Source: Halieaceae bacterium (GTDB taxonomy: Bacteria > Pseudomonadota > Gammaproteobacteria > Pseudomonadales > Halieaceae). From it: a stretch of DNA of 10,870 nt. The notes under the pieces were generated by a model. That model saw nothing but the letters and a program-made list of their open reading frames with translations. It searched no databases and had not been told where the DNA came from. Below are positions 1-7,460 of the stretch, one piece after another. Position 1 is the first letter of the stretch; each line of letters opens with the position of its first letter. The DNA is taken from contig QXYP01000306.1 in assembly GCA_009886815.1 (NCBI GenBank), forward strand, positions 1 through 10,870, given 5' to 3'. Both the position numbers and the translations under genes were made by a program.

Positions 1-1814
1 TGTATGGGGCCTGGTCTGACGATCGCTATCTCAATGACAAGATCATAAAAACAAGCAGGTTTAAGGCGTGGCAGCATCGACATCTGGGCCCGAGATTCAA
101 TCTGAAATACCCCCAGAGAATCAGCCGACTGAAGCATTTTGTAGGTTGCTTGGTCTTCCCGAGGAATATCCTGAATGCGCCTAATCTGAGGGTTTTCCCG
201 GTGCACTAACGCGAGAGTTTTACGGATCGCCGACAACATACCTAAGGCAAGTACATCGACTTTTAGCAACCCCAGAGCTTCGATATCTTCCTTATCCCAC
301 TGAATAACCGTTCTGTCATCCATGCTGGCATTTTCTACCGGAACCATATTAGAGATAGGTCCGCGGCTAATGACAAAGCCGCCAACGTGCTGGGAGAGAT
401 GGCGTGGAAAGCCAAGTATCTCTTGTACCAGCTCAAGGAAGATTTGTGCTTGTTTGCCGGGCATTCCCATGCCCTGCTGTTCGAAACGTTGCTTGAGTTC
501 GCCCTCTCGGTTCCACCACGCTAGGGATTTAGCGAGATCTTCTACCAAGGTGGCATCGAGCCCTAGGGCTTTACCAACGTCACGAACTGCACTTCTAGAC
601 CGATAAGTGATGACGGTTGCGGCTAAAGCGGCTCGTCTGCGCGTATATTTTCGATAGATATATTGAATAACTTCTTCGCGGCGTTCATGTTCGAAATCCA
701 CGTCAATATCCGGGGGCTCATCGCGTTCGCGAGATATGAAGCGCTCAAACAACAGGTTGACTTGCTCGGGATTCACTTCGGTAATGTGCAAGCAGTAGCA
801 AACAACAGAATTGGCAGCTGAGCCTCGGCCTTGGCACAAAATCTGTCTTTCCCGAGCAAATTGAACAAGGTCGTATACGGTCAAAAAATAGTATTCGTAG
901 TCGAGTTCAGAAATGAGTATTAACTCGTGCTGTATGCGATTCTGAATGGTACTGGGTACGCCGTTAGGCCAGCGTTGCGCAGCACCTAAGGCAACTTGTT
1001 CCCGCAGATAGGTATTGGCATCTTGGCCAGTGGGGATAACTTCTTCTGGGTACTCATAGCGGAGTTCGTCAAGGCTGAATTGACATTGTTGACTGATGCG
1101 TAAGGTTTCGCTGATCAGCGATGGTGGATAAAGGGGAAGTAATTTATCGAGAGTGCGCAAGTGCTGCTGGCTATTAGCCAGCCTACGCAGGCCCAGCTTA
1201 CTCACTGTGGTGTTGTGGTGCAGGGCGGTCAGCACATCATGTAGGCGTTTTCGTGATGCGCTGTGCATTCGAACATCACCACAGGCGACCAACGGTAGGT
1301 TCAACTTTTGTGCTAAATCCCAGCGCTGGCGAAAGCTTCGTATCTCGTCATTACCTAGCAGGCGACTACAGCCAACCCATATTCGACCGTTACACAGTCG
1401 TGCCAGTTGCTGGCCTGTACCCATTTCATAGTCAGAGTTGCCAGGTAGCCAGATAATGAGGCAGCGTTTTAAGTGAAAGATGACGTCGCGTAGACGAGTC
1501 GTGTATTCCCCTTTTGGGCTGCGACGCCTTGAGCGACTGATGAGGCCTGATAACTCGGCATAGGCCTCTCGGCTGGGTGCAAGTGCAATAAGCCGAATGC
1601 CTTCCACCAAATTAAACTCACTGCCAATAATAAGTTTTATGCCGCAGCGCTTTGCCGCGACATGGGCCTTTACTACACCGGCAAGGGAGCATTCATCAGT
1701 AATGGCCAGTGCGGAGTAGCCGCAGGCAGCGGCACGCTCCACTAATTCTTCAGGGTGGGAGGCTCCGAGTAGGAAACTGTAGTTGCTAAGGCAGTGGAGT
1801 TCGGCGTAAGGCAT
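1..1814 (-). CDS. dnaE2: DnaE2/ImuC error-prone DNA polymerase III alpha-type subunit, N-terminal 604 residues (C-terminus outside window)
   Basis: This is the catalytic polymerase of the SOS mutasome, a C-family polymerase that copies past lesions at the cost of mutations. The visible part starts with a PHP domain opening MPYAELHCLSNYSF, followed at about residues 15-45 by the DnaE2-typical GASHPEELVERAAACGYSAL. The palm motif PDIDVDFEHERREEV places two catalytic aspartates at D371 and D373. K518-V-D-V marks the third carboxylate at D520. The reading frame is open to the window edge and ends in IVRPGPI, a conserved DnaE2 stretch. Family members are about 1,020-1,070 residues, so roughly 40% is missing only because the window ends. 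The ATG at 1814 is the only sensible start: no in-frame ATG lies just upstream and the N-terminus matches the family. There is no Shine-Dalgarno; a LexA operator lies 7 nt upstream. imuB and imuA lie upstream on the same strand but in separate units. The identity is secure. Confidence 0.96.
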   Translation of the reverse strand, partial: MPYAELHCLSNYSFLLGASHPEELVERAAACGYSALAITDECSLAGVVKAHVAAKRCGIKLIIGSEFNLVEGIRLIALAPSREAYAELSGLISRSRRRSPKGEYTTRLRDVIFHLKRCLIIWLPGNSDYEMGTGQQLARLCNGRIWVGCSRLLGNDEIRSFRQRWDLAQKLNLPLVACGDVRMHSASRKRLHDVLTALHHNTTVSKLGLRRLANSQQHLRTLDKLLPLYPPSLISETLRISQQCQFSLDELRYEYPEEVIPTGQDANTYLREQVALGAAQRWPNGVPSTIQNRIQHELILISELDYEYYFLTVYDLVQFARERQILCQGRGSAANSVVCYCLHITEVNPEQVNLLFERFISRERDEPPDIDVDFEHERREEVIQYIYRKYTRRRAALAATVITYRSRSAVRDVGKALGLDATLVEDLAKSLAWWNREGELKQRFEQQGMGMPGKQAQIFLELVQEILGFPRHLSQHVGGFVISRGPISNMVPVENASMDDRTVIQWDKEDIEALGLLKVDVLALGMLSAIRKTLALVHRENPQIRRIQDIPREDQATYKMLQSADSLGVFQIESRAQMSMLPRLKPACFYDLVIEIAIVRPGPI

Positions 1815-1820
1815 GCAGTC

Positions 1821-1826
1821 ATTATA
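1821..1826 (-). promoter_or_regulatory. Predicted -10 element of dnaE2 (TATAAT)
   Basis: On the minus strand this reads TATAAT, a perfect sigma70 -10 hexamer. It directly abuts the LexA core and is followed by GACTGC and then the dnaE2 ATG at 1814. The usual distance from the -10 to the transcription start would put +1 at or within a base or two of the A of the ATG, predicting a leaderless mRNA. No convincing -35 is seen; TTCATT at 1846-1851 with a 19-bp spacer is weak. Confidence 0.65.
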
Positions 1827-1848
1827 CTGTATATTTATACAGTATAAT
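1821..1848. promoter_or_regulatory. LexA operator (SOS box) of dnaE2
   Basis: This is a 13-bp perfect inverted repeat around a central TT. The core is CTGT-N8-ACAG at 1827-1842. Positions 1825-1844 (TACTGTATATTTATACAGTA) match the E. coli LexA consensus TACTGTATATATATACAGTA at 19 of 20 bases. It lies 7 nt upstream of the dnaE2 ATG. LexA bound here would cover the adjoining -10 hexamer and block transcription until RecA-stimulated LexA self-cleavage. Confidence 0.95.
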
Positions 1849-1993
1849 GAATGGGTATTTGGATTTAATGTATTAATGGTGCAGGGTGATAACGGCTGCA
1901 CATTTTTAACTATCTTTGAAGGCGGGTGGCTGTTTTATGTCATCAAGAGCGCCATAGATGATTGTTGGCTGGCACACCTTCCTTCACAAATGG

Positions 1994-2043
1994 TGTAACG
2001 GTTACAGTGCACACTGATGGCTGTGCAGCGGTTTTTCACAGCC
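1994..2043. promoter_or_regulatory. Two dyads upstream of the lipocalin gene: possible operator and leader hairpin
   Basis: TGTAAC-G-GTTACA at 1994-2006 is a perfect 6-bp dyad of operator size. GGCTGTG (2019-2025) and CACAGCC (2037-2043) form a perfect 7-bp inverted repeat with an 11-nt loop, which could be a stem-loop in the lipocalin leader. Both lie within 80 nt upstream of the chosen ATG at 2074. I recognise neither as a binding site of a named regulator. No clear promoter could be assigned in the 1849-2073 spacer apart from a forward-facing TATAAT at 1843-1848. Confidence 0.35.
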
Positions 2044-2073
2044 TTGAAAATAACGATTTCACAGGGTAGTACT

Positions 2074-2604
2074 ATGATGTTGAGCACAACCACATTTAAA
2101 TACCTGAGTTTTAGTTTACTCATTTTGACTGCGTTGTCTGCTTGTACCGGTATGCCGGATGGCGTTGAGCCGGTGACGGGTTTCGACAAATCTCGCTATC
2201 TGGGAACTTGGCATGAAATTGCCCGTCTCGATCACAGTTTTGAGCGAGATTTGGTTGATGTGACGGCGGAATATTCCTTACGTGACGATGGCGCAGTTCG
2301 TGTTATCAATAGTGGAACTGACTCGACAACAGGCGAGCGCAAAGTCGCCGAGGGCCATGCCAAGTTTGTGGGTGATGACGGGACAGCGCATCTTAAAGTG
2401 TCATTCTTTGGGCCGTTTTACGGTAGTTACATCGTCTTTGAATTAGACCCTGACTATCGGTATGCCTTTGTGGCGGGTTACAACACAAATTACTTGTGGC
2501 TATTAGCTCGGGAGACAAATATCAGCGAGGACATTCGCAAGCGATTTACTGATCGGGCCGGAGATTTGGGGTTTGCGGTAGATGACTTGGTCTGGTTGCA
2601 CTGA
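2074..2604 (+). CDS. blc: Blc-type outer-membrane lipocalin (lipoprotein)
   Basis: This is a bacterial lipocalin of 176 residues, a lipid-binding beta-barrel thought to act in membrane-lipid maintenance under stress. Residues 1-23 form a lipoprotein signal with hydrophobic core YLSFSLLILTA and lipobox L-S-A-C (C24). The residue after the cysteine is Thr rather than Asp, so outer-membrane sorting is expected. The first lipocalin signature, RYLGTWHEIARLDHSFER at 41-58, closely resembles E. coli Blc. GYNTNYLWLLAR (135-146) is the second conserved strand, and the protein ends in DDLVWLH, as in Blc. I chose the tandem ATGs at 2074/2077 because the longer in-frame version from 2017 would put about 19 non-signal residues before the hydrophobic segment. 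The Shine-Dalgarno is weak (CAGGG, 2062-2066). The gene sits alone on the plus strand between dnaE2 (divergent) and imuB (convergent), splitting the mutasome genes. Confidence 0.93.
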   Translation: MMLSTTTFKYLSFSLLILTALSACTGMPDGVEPVTGFDKSRYLGTWHEIARLDHSFERDLVDVTAEYSLRDDGAVRVINSGTDSTTGERKVAEGHAKFVGDDGTAHLKVSFFGPFYGSYIVFELDPDYRYAFVAGYNTNYLWLLARETNISEDIRKRFTDRAGDLGFAVDDLVWLH

Positions 2605-2824
2605 CAGCATGCGCTACAGCGGAGTCTGGTTTTTTGTATGGGAAACGGTGCGTAATGCGGTAGGCCGAAGATAGAAAGTGTTCAGTTAATGATTGAGACT
2701 TGGGTTCCCCTTGCTAAGGTATGAGCTCTTTAAACTGATGCAGGCCCACCAACGATAATGGCTAGCCCAGCTAACTAACTCTAAGAGGCTCTGAGAGTAT
2801 TGTGGGTGACGACGGTTGCGGTAC

Positions 2825-4264
2825 TTATGGCAGTATTCCTTGTACGTACCACTGCTTGCTATAGCGGTCTTCGAAAATCCAGATAGGTTGCCCTGCTTGG
2901 GTTTGGGCAATGTAATAGTCCCGGCTGGCGGGCTTTTGCCACCAGTTATCCTCAAGGCGCTCAGGTCCTAGCAATAGCGTTAATACACCGTTCCAATGCA
3001 ATACATCGTCTTTAAGTCGTATGGGGTGGGGCTCATCAAATAGCCAGAAGGGTCTTTGTGCCAGTCCCGTTAAGAACGGCGGCAGCGATGCGACATCTTG
3101 ACTTAAGTGCTGACTGTGTTCAGGTAAATGTGCCTCGCGTAGAGCAATTTGGTTAATGGCTTGTAGCCCTAGACGTGATCTGAGGCGGTCAACCAGGTTA
3201 TGCAGGGGTTCACGGTTGTGGGCTTCGCCAAACAAGTCGGCAACAACGTCGTGTTGAGCTTGTAATTGGTGAACATGGAGTGCCAATCCCTCTATGTCGG
3301 TACCCAGTGCATGCTGCTCTAGGCTCAGTCGTGACAGCTCAAACCAGACCTCGGAATTACTGTGTGCTTCACTGCTACGCACGTCAAAAAGATCGTTATT
3401 GCCACGCATCCGTAGCATCTGCCATTCAATATGGGTTGCCTGATGCTGTGTTGCACGGCAAAAGCGCGTTAAAGCCTGCAACAATTGCTGCATGGCGGGG
3501 TGTAGCTCGATCTGGTTGCGAATTTCAAAGCCGAACCATAGGCAATCATAAAACCGGGGGGGCGGATGAAAGTCTTGGGTAACGGTGTCCGAAGTCGCCG
3601 TGACATCGCTCAGCCATTTTTGAAACCCCTGACCACAGCGGCGTCCCAATGCGCTTGCGGGCATGTTGAGTATTTCTCCCAGTGTTTGAATTCCGGCTTT
3701 TTCAAGACGGGTAATGGCGCTAAAAAATTGATCTGCTTGAGCGTTGCGCAGTAAATGCAGGGGAATCTCATCGAGCCTTTGTCGTAGGCTTTGCTCTGAT
3801 GCGTATAAAAAATTCTGGTCCCAGTGGCTGAGTAGCCAGGCTGCACAGCGATTGGGGGCTAAGCCTGATCGCACTGTAAAGCCCCGCTGTTCGAGGTCAC
3901 TTTGGATGTTGTTGACGAGTTCTTTAAGACCGCCATGCAGTTTTAAGCATCGACCCACTTCAAGTTGCAGTCCCTCATTTTGCCAGCGTTCCAGCGTTGG
4001 TGTGATGCTATAAGCCCAGCATTCTAAACGTTCCAGTGCACGTGCCTCTTGGCTTAGGTCACGTTCAATGAGTTGCAGATGAGGTGTTTCGACGAGGGCG
4101 CGAACGGTGGCGGTACTTTGCCCGGGTTTAAGGCCTGCCGACTGTGCTTCGTCGTTAACGGCAATCACGCGCTGTCGCTCTATGACAACGGCAGGGTGAT
4201 CCTGTTGTAGTGGTTGACACTCAAGGGGGAGCCGGGGAAACCGAAGGTAGAGCCAAAGAGACAT
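2825..4264 (-). CDS. imuB: ImuB, catalytically inactive Y-family polymerase homologue (mutasome scaffold)
   Basis: ImuB (479 residues) recruits DnaE2 and ImuA to the beta sliding clamp during SOS translesion synthesis. The start MSLWLYLRFPRLPLE aligns with other ImuB N-termini. Where active Y-family polymerases have a metal-binding Asp near the N-terminus there is only LYLRFP, and the SxDE motif is replaced by AYSITPTLE (84-92). The enzyme should therefore be non-catalytic, as is known for ImuB. Helix-hairpin-like LEKAGIQTLGEILNMP (187-202) and a little-finger-like region follow. VADLFG (341-346) is a plausible degenerate beta-clamp-binding motif, since the known motif resembles QLxLF. The C-terminus (SRDYYIAQ, 447-454; IWIFEDRYSKQWYVQGILP, 461-479) is typical of the family. 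The ATG at 4264 has no Shine-Dalgarno, and its own perfect LexA box begins 9 nt upstream. It is tail-to-tail with the lipocalin gene across 220 bp. Confidence 0.95.
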   Translation of the reverse strand: MSLWLYLRFPRLPLECQPLQQDHPAVVIERQRVIAVNDEAQSAGLKPGQSTATVRALVETPHLQLIERDLSQEARALERLECWAYSITPTLERWQNEGLQLEVGRCLKLHGGLKELVNNIQSDLEQRGFTVRSGLAPNRCAAWLLSHWDQNFLYASEQSLRQRLDEIPLHLLRNAQADQFFSAITRLEKAGIQTLGEILNMPASALGRRCGQGFQKWLSDVTATSDTVTQDFHPPPRFYDCLWFGFEIRNQIELHPAMQQLLQALTRFCRATQHQATHIEWQMLRMRGNNDLFDVRSSEAHSNSEVWFELSRLSLEQHALGTDIEGLALHVHQLQAQHDVVADLFGEAHNREPLHNLVDRLRSRLGLQAINQIALREAHLPEHSQHLSQDVASLPPFLTGLAQRPFWLFDEPHPIRLKDDVLHWNGVLTLLLGPERLEDNWWQKPASRDYYIAQTQAGQPIWIFEDRYSKQWYVQGILP

Positions 4265-4270
4265 AGTTTA

Positions 4271-4276
4271 ATAATA
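4271..4276 (-). promoter_or_regulatory. Predicted -10 element of imuB (TATTAT)
   Basis: On the minus strand this reads TATTAT, matching the sigma70 -10 at 5 of 6 bases. It directly abuts the LexA core and is followed by TAAACT and the imuB ATG at 4264. The spacing is identical to that at dnaE2, so the transcription start should again fall at or next to the ATG. A weak -35 (TTACCA, 4296-4301) lies at a 19-bp spacer. Confidence 0.6.
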
Positions 4277-4296
4277 CTGTATATATATACAGTATT
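4273..4296. promoter_or_regulatory. LexA operator (SOS box) of imuB, perfect consensus
   Basis: This is a 24-bp perfect palindrome. Positions 4275-4294 read TACTGTATATATATACAGTA, identical to the E. coli LexA consensus over all 20 bases. The CTGT-N8-ACAG core is at 4277-4292. It overlaps the predicted -10 of imuB and ends 9 nt from the start codon. Of the three boxes in the window this should bind LexA most tightly. Confidence 0.97.
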
Positions 4297-4622
4297 GGTA
4301 ATTCTTTTTAATCGACCTCAGAACACCTTCTTTATTGAAGTTGTTGTTGTCTTAAGGCTTGTTATGAGTCGCTCACGACAACTGGAGGTGCCATGGGGTA
4401 CCGTAATGTGGCCGGATAGATTTTGAGTAAATCAGAGTCTTTAATGAGACAGCCTGAAATTTGGGGCGAGGCTTTTTTTGGGGTGTGTCTTTATTATTTT
4501 GCCACGCTTTTAAAGTGGCGCCATCTTGACGTTGTGATGAGCAATAAAAAAATCGCAGCTTTCCCGAAACCGGCGTATGACACAGTTTTTTAGAGAAACG
4601 TTCCTTTAAATTCTAGTTAGAT
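4297..4622. other. 326-bp gap between imuB operator and DUF2788 gene; no gene recognised
   Basis: No convincing coding region is seen on either strand. On the plus strand a 20-codon reading frame (MSRSRQLEVPWG...) ends at 4426, and it overlaps an 8-codon one behind GGAG; neither resembles a known protein. GCCAC (4501-4505) and GTGGC (4515-4519) could pair as a small stem. On the minus strand, downstream of the DUF2788 stop, a T-rich tract lies near 4546-4552 without a strong preceding hairpin, so osmC-DUF2788 transcription may run on towards imuB. Confidence 0.4.
4451..4479 (+). terminator. Weak terminator-like stem and T-run
   Basis: AGCCT (4451-4455) can pair with AGGCT (4469-4473), followed by an uninterrupted T-run through 4479. 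The 5-bp stem and 13-nt loop are marginal for intrinsic termination. No plus-strand gene precedes it, so it would matter only if a transcript starts near the imuB operator. Confidence 0.2.
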
Positions 4623-4835
4623 CTAAAGACCACCCCCTTCCATTAAATACTGGATAACACCTTTAATGGCAAAGCCCAGCAAGCCCATAGCGAGGGCAAT
4701 AAATAAAATAAAGGTGCCGTAACGCCCGGCATTGTTACGACGGGCAAGGTCCCAAACAATAAAAACCATAAGGGCCATGAGTGCCGTTATACCTAGGGTA
4801 ACCCCCCACTCGCTAAGCCAAGTGTCCAATGACAT
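4623..4835 (-). CDS. DUF2788 family small membrane protein
   Basis: This 70-residue protein matches the DUF2788 pattern known from gammaproteobacteria, whose function is unknown. It has two predicted membrane helices, at about residues 11-30 (GVTLGITALMALMVFIVWDL) and 41-63. They are joined by a short basic loop ARRNNAGRYG (31-40), and the second helix ends in the family-typical GFAIKGVIQ. The length is normal for the family. Its ATG overlaps the osmC stop by one base (TAATG) and it has no Shine-Dalgarno of its own, so translation is probably coupled to osmC. The positive loop suggests that both termini face the periplasm if the positive-inside rule holds. Nothing in the sequence gives a function beyond membrane location and linkage to the OsmC-type protein. 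Confidence 0.85.
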   Translation of the reverse strand: MSLDTWLSEWGVTLGITALMALMVFIVWDLARRNNAGRYGTFILFIALAMGLLGFAIKGVIQYLMEGGGL

Positions 4836-5272
4836 TAGGCGAACTGAATATCGCTGGTCATAGATACGGTTGCGCTTAATGAATTGGTAATTAAGCAGCT
4901 GTCTTCAGCCTTTTCGAGAATACGTTGTACGCGCTCTGTGCTGATATCGCCTTGTGGCGTTACGGTGACATGCAGCTGAATCTCCGTAAATTTGGGTTCG
5001 CGATCGATACGATCAAGAGTTCCCGTAGCCTGGCATTGGATTTGATTCCATTGCACTCTGGACCCTTGCGCAATTGCACGAAACGTTAAAATAAAGCAGT
5101 CGGCTACTGCGGCCATGAATAGTGATTCAGGGCTCCATTGATCACCCGGGCCGCCAAACTCCGAGGGTGCATTTGTGGTGATATCAGGCAGGCCCGAGGC
5201 AGCAACCGTAATGTGGCTATTAGTTTCTTTACCGCTCGCAGTGACGGTATAACGGTGAGGAAAAGGTTCCAT
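4835..5272 (-). CDS. OsmC/Ohr-superfamily thiol protein
   Basis: This is a 145-residue cytoplasmic protein of the OsmC superfamily, whose characterised members reduce organic hydroperoxides with a cysteine pair. The two family cysteines are present: C59 in SPESLFMAAVADCF (47-60) at the start of the central helix, and C126 in EDSCLIT. The length and spacing are normal. An extra C80 is present. The sequence fits the general OsmC branch better than I can assign it to Ohr or OsmC proper, so the substrate is left open. The ATG at 5272 has a good Shine-Dalgarno (AGAGG, 7 nt spacing). It lies 95 bp downstream of the imuA stop on the same strand with no evident terminator, so it could be cotranscribed with imuA and hence partly SOS-induced. 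It overlaps the DUF2788 gene by one base. Confidence 0.88.
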   Translation of the reverse strand: MEPFPHRYTVTASGKETNSHITVAASGLPDITTNAPSEFGGPGDQWSPESLFMAAVADCFILTFRAIAQGSRVQWNQIQCQATGTLDRIDREPKFTEIQLHVTVTPQGDISTERVQRILEKAEDSCLITNSLSATVSMTSDIQFA

Positions 5273-5367
5273 GAAATGGCCTCTATAGGGGCTGTCGGCA
5301 GGACAAATAAACTAGTGTAGCTTGCCTGTTCATGCAACGTCATTTGAGCATTTTTGACCGCCCCATT

Positions 5368-6111
5368 TTAAGCAACTGGTGTCAGTATTTGTCCGGTATG
5401 GGTCCGACGCATTTTTCCTGTGGGAATCTCCCAGGGTTGTGGTGTGTTGATGATATCCTCTTCGTCGGGCAGTCTGATATTACTTGCCGGTCTTCCACCA
5501 CGTTGCTTCAGGATGTCAACGGTGTGATAGCGATTGACCGTTAGGCGCAAACTAAAGGGTGTATGTTGTTCGGTGGCTTGATGAGCCCGAAATAGAACGA
5601 CAAGGGTGTCGTTTTCAGTGGCAGCTAACTGCAGTTTTCGCAATTCAGCATAACGGTAATCACTGGCCCCTAGCCAACTGAAAACTACACTACAAGTGGT
5701 GCTGCGAATGGCTTGTTCGGTGGCCCATAGTCGCTCTTCACGGTCTTTGGGGTGCACCATTAGGATTTGCTCCGTAGCAATACCTCGGGCAGCGAGTAGC
5801 GGGGCGTAAGGTGCATGGGGTGGCGCAATAAAAGCCTGCCACCGGTGTTGGTCGCTGAGAGCTGCCATGGTGGGTAGAAACAGGCCCATAGAGTCGGTAC
5901 CGCTGTCCTTACTAAGGACTTCAACACCACCGCGTAGCGGCCAGCCAGACATGGCTATTTCAGCGTCGAGTGCTGCAAACCCGGTGGGCAGTGTATCGAC
6001 ACCGTGCAGGTCACTGTTGGCAGATGTACGCATTGCGAATACATTTTCGCCAGTATTCATACCGCGCCAGGTATCAGGACGATTGATGATGTGTTCAAGT
6101 GGGTCAGACAT
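5368..6111 (-). CDS. imuA: ImuA, RecA-like accessory protein of the translesion mutasome
   Basis: ImuA (247 residues) is the RecA/SulA-like partner of ImuB and DnaE2. Family landmarks are LPTGFAALDAEI (41-52), SGWPLRGGVEVL (55-66), a C-S-V-V-F-S-W-L strand followed by YRYAELRKLQLAA (140-164), VLFRA (172-176) and the KQRGG box (202-206). The region equivalent to the RecA P-loop reads SKDSGTDSMGL and lacks the GxxxxGK[ST] Walker A motif, so ATP binding by that motif is not expected. The first 40 residues are poorly conserved. The ATG at 6111 has a strong Shine-Dalgarno (AGAGGAG, 6118-6124, 6 nt gap), unlike imuB and dnaE2. A LexA box and a 5' leader hairpin lie upstream. imuB is more than 1 kb downstream, beyond osmC-DUF2788, whereas the textbook arrangement is imuA-imuB-dnaE2 in one operon. 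Confidence 0.92.
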   Translation of the reverse strand: MSDPLEHIINRPDTWRGMNTGENVFAMRTSANSDLHGVDTLPTGFAALDAEIAMSGWPLRGGVEVLSKDSGTDSMGLFLPTMAALSDQHRWQAFIAPPHAPYAPLLAARGIATEQILMVHPKDREERLWATEQAIRSTTCSVVFSWLGASDYRYAELRKLQLAATENDTLVVLFRAHQATEQHTPFSLRLTVNRYHTVDILKQRGGRPASNIRLPDEEDIINTPQPWEIPTGKMRRTHTGQILTPVA

Positions 6112-6134
6112 GTTGTACTCCTCTGCGGCTAGGA

Positions 6135-6165
6135 ACGTACAGCTGACTTGCCAAGAGCTGTACGT
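6135..6165 (-). promoter_or_regulatory. Stem-loop in the predicted imuA 5' leader
   Basis: ACGTACAGCT (6135-6144) and AGCTGTACGT (6156-6165) form a perfect 10-bp inverted repeat with an 11-nt spacer. In the minus-strand RNA the spacer CTTGGCAAGTC adds an inner CTT/AAG stem with a GGC loop. It sits just after the predicted imuA transcription start (about 6169) and ends 10 nt before the Shine-Dalgarno. It could protect the RNA 5' end or affect translation. It also contains ACAG and CTGT half-sites in the outward order, so a DNA-binding role cannot be excluded. Confidence 0.5.
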
Positions 6166-6175
6166 ACTGCTGTAT

Positions 6176-6181
6176 AAGATA
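6176..6181 (-). promoter_or_regulatory. Predicted -10 element of imuA (TATCTT)
   Basis: On the minus strand this reads TATCTT, 4 of 6 matches to TATAAT. It abuts the LexA core at exactly the position held by TATAAT and TATTAT at dnaE2 and imuB. The predicted start near 6169 gives a leader of about 58 nt. The hexamer alone is weak; the positional agreement with the other two promoters is the main support. Confidence 0.45.
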
Positions 6182-6199
6182 CTGTATAAATGAACAGTA
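6180..6199. promoter_or_regulatory. LexA operator (SOS box) in the imuA / MFS spacer
   Basis: TACTGTATAAATGAACAGTA matches the E. coli LexA consensus at 17 of 20 bases, with the CTGT-N8-ACAG core at 6182-6197. It is 69 nt upstream of the imuA ATG and 35 nt upstream of the divergent MFS start, so it could act on both. A second CTGTATAA copy (6170-6177) lies 12 bp away but lacks a matching ACAG arm. Confidence 0.88.
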
Positions 6200-6233
6200 G
6201 TCTGCTAGGCCCACAAAATCAAGGGGAGGTTGT

Positions 6234-7460
6234 TTGAAGCGTCGTGAAAAGCGACAGGTAAGGCGGTCAGCTTTAAATGAGGTGGCATTTAGGCGTTATT
6301 TTCCGGCGAGCTGGTTTTCCAGTCTCGGTTCCTGGATGTTGCGCTTTTTACTGGGTTGGAGTGCTTGGGATCTCACCGCATCTGCAAGTTGGGTCGGTAT
6401 AACCGCCGCCTTAATGCTGGCCCCTGCGCTGCTCTTGTCACCTTGGTTCGGTATTTTGTCAGATCGAATCAATCCCCGTTATGGCCTGGTGGCTTCAATG
6501 CTGGTGCATGGAATCATTGCGCTTGGCGGTGCCGCGGCGCTGTGGGCCAATGCTTTTGGAATTCCGGTATTGCTGGCCTTAGCTTTGGCTATGGGAGTTG
6601 TGACATCGGGTCATAGCCCTATGCGACTCGCCCTGATACCGCTTTTAGTTGAACGGGCGGCACTGCCCAGTGCCGTAGGGCTTTCCGCCACAACCTTCAA
6701 TATTGCTCGTATTCTTGGACCCGCTTTAGGCGCGGCTCTTATTGCCAGTTCTGGTCCAGCATTGGCGTTTATGCTTGCCGGGGTCATGTTTGCGATTGCG
6801 GCAGCTATCTTATTAAAAATTCATGGAATAGGGATTCGTGAGCCGCGACCCCGGGAGCCATTCCTGCAGCAATTTACAGCGGGGCTTCGTTATGTGCGAG
6901 CCGAGCCTGCTATTCAACTGATCTTTGCATTCACGGTACTCAACGGCATGCTGGGTAGGACGGTTGTGGAGCTCTTGCCTGCATTTGCCGGTGGCTTCTT
7001 GGGTGGAGGGGCAAAAGAACTGGCTACGTTAACAGCATGTGCAGGCCTGGGTTCTATCGTTGGTGGTCTAATTTTGACCCGTCAACAGGCCGATACGGCG
7101 AGCCTGCTCAACCTTGTAGCATTAGCTATCGCTGGCGCCGCTCTGTTAATGCTGGGCTTGTTTCTGGGCTCTGATTTATACCGATTGGGGGCGCTGATCT
7201 TTGCGTTAAGTTTATTCACGACTATTGCGGGTACCGGTTGCCAAACGATTATTCAGCTGTGCCTAGAGGAGCGTTATCGCGGTCGTGTGTTGAGTTTGTG
7301 GACCCTGTTTGCCATGGGAGGGCCGGCGCTGGGGTCTGCTGCGCTGGGTGCACTAACCGATATTTTTGGCTATACCCCTGTTTTCACAGTAGCAGCCGGT
7401 GCTGGATGGCTGGTGTTACTGCTACTTTATTCACGCCGGACCAGCCTGTCGGGGTTATAA
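6234..7460 (+). CDS. MFS transporter (MFS_3/EntS-like exporter family)
   Basis: This is a 408-residue inner-membrane transporter of the major facilitator superfamily with about 12 predicted helices and a basic N-terminus (KRREKRQVRR). The loop after helix 2 carries the family motif G-I-L-S-D-R-I-N-P-R-Y-G (73-84), and ERYRGRVLSLWTL occurs in the second half, as in the EntS-like MFS_3 group. These are mostly drug, macrolide or siderophore exporters; the substrate cannot be told here. The start is taken as TTG at 6234 behind AAGGGGAGG (6221-6229), because the first in-frame ATG would cut into the first helix region. It is divergent from imuA and shares a spacer containing a LexA box. A possible forward promoter (TTGCCA 6148-6153, TATAAG 6173-6178, 19-bp spacer) lies next to that box. 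The gene ends 4 bp from the convergent holA stop. Confidence 0.9.
   Translation: MKRREKRQVRRSALNEVAFRRYFPASWFSSLGSWMLRFLLGWSAWDLTASASWVGITAALMLAPALLLSPWFGILSDRINPRYGLVASMLVHGIIALGGAAALWANAFGIPVLLALALAMGVVTSGHSPMRLALIPLLVERAALPSAVGLSATTFNIARILGPALGAALIASSGPALAFMLAGVMFAIAAAILLKIHGIGIREPRPREPFLQQFTAGLRYVRAEPAIQLIFAFTVLNGMLGRTVVELLPAFAGGFLGGGAKELATLTACAGLGSIVGGLILTRQQADTASLLNLVALAIAGAALLMLGLFLGSDLYRLGALIFALSLFTTIAGTGCQTIIQLCLEERYRGRVLSLWTLFAMGGPALGSAALGALTDIFGYTPVFTVAAGAGWLVLLLLYSRRTSLSGL

Follow-up and report, generated by a model that had tools for sequence, protein, structure and literature searches.

In a Halieaceae genome, the ImuA-ImuB-DnaE2 mutasome of the SOS response is encoded by three separated genes, each with its own LexA-type operator, and these genes are probably expressed as three LexA-repressed transcription units rather than one (estimated probability about 0.78). 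The genes of the imu cassette are generally regarded as being regulated together, as a single unit. The window analysed here is contig QXYP01000306.1 (GCA_009886815.1; 10,870 nucleotides), a whole contig of a 374-contig, 2.7-Mb Luminiphilus-like metagenome-assembled genome (MAG). The nearest named relatives of its ImuB belong to Luminiphilus MAGs and the marine strain HTCC2080 (85-89% identity), and on this basis, together with the placement of Luminiphilus in Halieaceae, "genus" denotes Luminiphilus and "family" denotes Halieaceae throughout.

LexA-type operators at imuA, imuB and dnaE2

The features of the window are listed below by position (operators are unstranded); holA-lptE-leuS lie beyond the last of them.

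3..1814, minus strand: dnaE2, N-terminal 604 aa of an error-prone C-family polymerase (Pfam PHP, DNA_pol3_alpha and finger domains), truncated by the contig end
1815..1826, minus strand: spacer between operator and dnaE2 ATG, GACTGC plus a TATAAT hexamer, candidate -10 element of a leaderless message (function predicted from sequence)
1827..1842: LexA-type operator of dnaE2, CTGTATAAATATACAG on the minus strand, 12 nt from the ATG
2074..2604, plus strand: lipocalin (Blc-like, from profile matches), convergent with imuB and divergent from dnaE2
2825..4264, minus strand: imuB, catalytically dead Y-family protein (Pfam IMS)
4265..4276, minus strand: spacer between operator and imuB ATG, TAAACT plus a TATTAT hexamer, likewise a candidate -10 element of a leaderless message
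4277..4292: LexA-type operator of imuB, CTGTATATATATACAG, 12 nt from the ATG; with its flanks an exact match to the 20-mer consensus
4623..4835, minus strand: DUF2788 small membrane protein (Pfam), overlapping the osmC stop codon
4835..5272, minus strand: OsmC-family protein (Pfam), 95 bp downstream of imuA, without an operator of its own
5368..6111, minus strand: imuA (NCBIfam NF033429, above cut-off)
6182..6197: LexA-type operator between imuA and the divergent MFS gene, 70 nt from the imuA ATG and 36 nt from the MFS TTG
6234..7460, plus strand: MFS_3 / H+-antiporter-like transporter (profile matches), likely sharing the operator of imuA, as judged from operator spacing

The first-pass annotation had placed imuA, imuB and dnaE2 in this order on one strand, each behind its own LexA operator, and this was confirmed both in the window and in related genomes. 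Instead of three contiguous genes with one operator, the locus showed gaps of 1106 and 1013 bp and three operators. The strict operator, defined as CTGT-N8-ACAG, was found in the window only at 1827-1842, 4277-4292 and 6182-6197, that is, three times against 0.16 expected, and none of 200 shuffles reached three. When compared with the 20-mer TACTG(TA)5CAGTA, the E. coli-type LexA consensus, the sites of dnaE2, imuB and imuA had one, zero and three mismatches, respectively, and no shuffle yielded three such sites. Chance operators were rejected on the grounds of these shuffles and of the conservation in relatives described below.

A narrower pattern, CTGTAYAWNNNNACAG, occurred at six distinct sites in the 2.7-Mb MAG, three of them in the window and one located 17 bp before lexA, where a one-mismatch copy lies another 17 bp further up. 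The presence of this site before the genome's own lexA indicates that the motif fits the host LexA. Among 30 lexA loci surveyed in the genus, 28 were readable and 21 of these carried a strict site; five of the remaining seven carried a one-mismatch site. The imu locus shows the feature by which the LexA regulon is recognized, a LexA-type operator at the promoter, and dinB had no strict site across its 3.4-kb locus. Scans of positions 1700-6400 found three promoter-like sites against 5.1 expected and four terminator-like sites against 5.2, none above chance.

The identities of the three proteins were supported by profile matches. ImuA matched the NCBIfam ImuA equivalog NF033429 with 195.4 bits (cut-off 150), placing it in the translesion family. 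ImuB matched Pfam IMS with 53.6 bits, as expected of a Y-family fold, but lacks the acidic residues needed for catalysis: the genome's own DinB reads IDADCFF and SLDEAYLD where ImuB reads LYLRFPRLPLE and WQNEGLQLEV, the first of these stretches being compared by eye, as the aligned DinB row began downstream of it. A putative clamp-binding motif, VVADLF, retains the DLF in the window ImuB; xxxDLF forms occurred in most of the listed ImuB relatives (25 commonest forms) and were lacking in 5 of 89. A sequence search of ImuB against the PDB returned no match at E up to 0.001. The best NCBIfam match of DnaE2 was the error-prone polymerase subfamily NF004225, with 816 bits on the partial protein; the contig end truncates the gene, and the score therefore stays under the cut-off of 939 set for full-length proteins. 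Its reading frame in relatives mostly spans 1030-1180 codons. The translation also contains a DIDVDFE motif. As a separate observation, the match to several ImuB of the genus (loci L085-L094) was broken in two by additional residues around position 286, possibly a lineage insertion.

In the proposed mechanism, DNA damage would activate RecA, LexA bound at the three operators would be cleaved, and the operators would be freed independently. Unit 1 would be opened by the divergent operator and comprise the MFS transporter on one side and imuA on the other, the latter probably followed by osmC-DUF2788, while imuB as unit 2 and dnaE2 as unit 3 would each be read from their own operators into separate messages, and the three products would then assemble into the mutasome. 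The imuB and dnaE2 messages would have very short leaders or none, and that of imuA a longer leader with a Shine-Dalgarno sequence. Separate induction and leaderless translation are predictions of this model.

Conservation and gene separation in Halieaceae

Of 140 family genomes, 134 encode a recognizable ImuB, 132 an ImuA and 128 a DnaE2, and the upstream regions were read for most of them. A strict operator within 300 bp upstream was present in the genus at imuA in 48/48, at imuB in 53/53 and at dnaE2 in 48/49, the lone exception having a one-mismatch site instead. The corresponding counts in other genera of the family were 48/50, 33/43 and 41/57. None of the neighbouring genes used as controls at the same loci had a strict operator (leuS 0/31, lptE 0/27, holA 0/76, osmC 0/52, DUF2788 0/43). 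All three operators occurred together in 42 of 42 genus genomes in which every upstream region was readable and in 17 of 34 genomes of other genera, and alignments of six close loci showed the operators as conserved islands amid diverged spacers. The locus of strain HTCC2080 (L037) is arranged in the same way. L045 and L047 are copies of the locus from separate contigs of a single MAG (G089, 6% contamination), probably a mixture of two strains. The imuA match at L139 (G131) has an in-frame TAG.

An imuB operator accompanied the separation of imuB from imuA. Across the family, imuB had its own operator in all 65 genomes with an imuA-imuB gap longer than 600 bp, but in one of the 13 where the gap was smaller; within the genus the gap ranged from 252 to 7760 bp. 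In the genus-level group g2 the genes run imuA-DUF2788-imuB and no operator lies between them, and in g5, g15, g21 and G114 imuA and imuB are nearly adjacent without an operator between them. Two insertions, osmC-DUF2788 and the inverted lipocalin, had been proposed as the cause of the split, which proved too simple. The lipocalin inversion between imuB and dnaE2 holds in 49/49 readable genus genomes (3/11 others), but osmC and DUF2788 are not private to this arrangement, both lying within 1.5 kb after imuA in 8/43 readable genus genomes and 18/50 of other genera; DUF2788 and/or osmC beside imuA is an old association in the family. LexA control of the lipocalin is not claimed, since the strict site found within 300 bp in 42/49 loci is that of dnaE2, and its distance to the lipocalin varies from 6 to 245 bp.

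The origin of the imuB operator was viewed on a tree of 89 ImuB sequences, of which 70 came from the family (22 of these chosen from within the genus) and 19 served as outgroups; broken or short matches were dropped. The tree tentatively suggests one early gain in the family and a few losses upon re-joining of imuB with imuA, as read from a quick tree with open forks and long branches. In a sample of 115 genomes of the order, 4 of them from the same family, imuA and imuB were within 350 bp of each other in 49/57 genomes outside the family and imuB and dnaE2 in 35/55, weak second matches being excluded. Loci read from 19 genomes of other families had an operator at the cassette head in 17, before imuB in 0 and before a detached dnaE2 in 4. 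Judged from these loci, dnaE2 detachment recurs, and within this sample an operator dedicated to imuB seems to be peculiar to Halieaceae.

Orphan imuA loci (L159-L162) were also recorded. In G133, G135 and G036 the family imuA stands alone behind an operator, and the genome has in addition another imuA-imuB-dnaE2 set that is divergent and contiguous; G139 carries imuA with an operator, while searches for imuB (E 0.001) and dnaE2 (E 1e-150) gave no match. These loci fit imuA as an independent unit.

Translation starts, the divergent transporter and alternative readings

In the genus, no more than 18 nt separate the end of the operator from the start codon at imuB in 53/53 and at dnaE2 in all 48 with an operator, whereas this was the case at imuA in 0/48. 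With a Shine-Dalgarno sequence called at a match of 4 or more, imuA had one in 49/49, imuB in 2/53 and dnaE2 in 0/48. As the operators nearly touch the start codon and a Shine-Dalgarno sequence is lacking, the imuB and dnaE2 messages are likely leaderless or very short-leadered. Both genes in the window read CAG-TATNAT-N6-ATG, the -10-like layout of a leaderless message, and their N-termini (YAELHC in DnaE2, LWLCLRF in ImuB) leave scant room for later starts. Among the 38 dnaE2 genes of other genera with an operator in range, 16, from eight genera, have just 1-4 nt between the operator core and the ATG. The imuB genes of other genera had a Shine-Dalgarno sequence in 15/34.

The operator next to imuA was assigned to imuA at first, and the divergent MFS gene was missed as a fourth gene beneath these operators. 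The distance from operator to MFS gene, measured to the residue homologous to the first residue in the window, was 36 bp in 49 loci and 35 bp in 1 (50 loci, 49 genomes), and that to imuA varied from 47 to 164 bp (n = 49). Fixed spacing on one side and variable spacing on the other indicate that the operator probably serves both imuA and the transporter, and a site held at 35-36 bp suggests an SOS-controlled exporter. Part of the genus has an in-frame ATG inside the 36-bp stretch, suggesting a longer MFS N-terminus, so some of the spacing constancy may be coding. Relatives of the MFS transporter in 11 genomes of other genera had no operator within 300 bp, which argues that the site was ancestrally that of imuA, and the transporter probably came under LexA by moving beside imuA. 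The literature search found nothing on an MFS transporter with an SOS box in the LexA regulon.

Several observations weigh against three independent units with leaderless starts. The terminator-like sites are at chance level, and with no convincing terminator between the units some read-through from imuA into imuB is possible in this genome. A missing Shine-Dalgarno sequence is not special to imuB and dnaE2, given that the controls leuS, lptE and holA have one in only 1/10, 3/10 and 6/83, although it was commoner in osmC (36/50) and DUF2788 (19/41). For imuB, the short leader is characteristic of the genus, the operator lying within 18 nt in 3/33 imuB genes of other genera. A strict operator is absent in other genera from 16/57 dnaE2 and 10/43 imuB genes, and the imuB-operator state changes at least five times on the ImuB tree, one change being a contig-edge artefact (G047, with only 22 bp available upstream of imuB). 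The genomes are moreover related, so that the counts do not represent independent events.

The middle operator might merely boost a main SOS message reading from imuA through osmC-DUF2788 into imuB, which would leave effectively two units as in mycobacteria. The four genes do lie on one strand within 3.3 kb, with no strong terminator before imuB. This reading is nevertheless unlikely: the imuB operator is the best 20-mer match of the three and lies directly at the start codon, and it is retained in relatives whose imuA and imuB are 2.7-30 kb apart, where imuB therefore cannot depend on the imuA promoter.

It is rather improbable that the third operator is chiefly that of the MFS transporter and reaches imuA only secondarily. 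The near-constant distance to the MFS gene and the variable one to imuA would favour this, but the in-frame ATG may account for part of that constancy, other genera without an adjacent MFS gene still have a strict imuA operator in 48/50, and the MFS relatives in 11 genomes of other genera lack an operator within 300 bp. Finally, a one-genome accident, with the operon disrupted by random insertions and operators mimicked by chance, finds nothing in its favour beyond the single-genome view and is refuted by conservation in 42/42 readable genus genomes and 17/34 of other genera, as well as by a site count far exceeding the shuffles.

The first-pass annotation proposed that the split would uncouple the dose and timing of scaffold, accessory protein and polymerase, which stands as a hypothesis. 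Operator quality was found to differ only mildly: across 78 genomes, imuA had a poorer 20-mer match than imuB in 37 and a better one in 7, with 34 ties. A ranked operator strength acting as a timing code was considered and set aside, the trend being mild with many ties. A more comprehensive reading is offered tentatively: the family would have split the imu operon into independently LexA-gated units with operators fused to start codons, dnaE2 (and imuB in the genus) being leaderless and imuA not, so that the same LexA signal would be read by different translation rules for the polymerase and the accessory protein; in the genus, a divergent exporter would have taken over the imuA operator, and an efflux pump would thereby have joined the SOS genes.

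Relation to known imu cassettes

In P. putida and C. crescentus, imuA-imuB-dnaE2 is co-transcribed as one unit. The locus described here resembles this canonical imuABC cassette of Caulobacter and Pseudomonas in its three families, gene order, strand and LexA-type operator at imuA (PMC3901139, PMC9578287, PMC3323433), and differs from its single unit in having three separated genes with three operators. In mycobacteria the cassette consists of imuA'-imuB and dnaE2 and was termed "split" after Erill et al. 2006 (PMC10421592). Both cassettes are physically split, and the mycobacterial one is under DNA-damage control (PMC10421592). The mycobacterial cassette has two units, with imuA'-imuB forming a two-gene operon, whereas here imuA and imuB are also apart, with a separate operator for imuB. 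Some genomes of the same taxonomic order (e.g. G142, G204 and G235) have two units and likewise a detached dnaE2 with its own operator, but differ in that imuA and imuB are adjacent with no operator between them (0/19 genomes).

The literature describes the cassette as an operon, in variable arrangements and, in mycobacteria, as split in two (PMC12926913, PMC3901139, PMC9578287, PMC10421592, PMC3323433). No report of a three-way split was found in the literature searched, although Erill et al. 2006, the main layout survey, could contain such cases; the search likewise found nothing on the SOS response or imuA in Luminiphilus, imuB in Halieaceae or LexA in OM60. By the terms of the first-pass annotation, its proposal would fail if the split were both common and already described in the clade: it is common (42/42 in the genus, 17/34 in other genera), and no description was found. 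The locus is thus real and conserved, and the three-way split is, as far as found, an unreported arrangement of a known cassette.

The family holds every stage, from one operon through imuAB plus dnaE2 and three units to an orphan imuA, and so constitutes a natural experiment on the joint production of partners. It makes testable what determines the stoichiometry within a mutagenic polymerase complex: the structure of the operon, or the strength of the operators together with the type of translation start.

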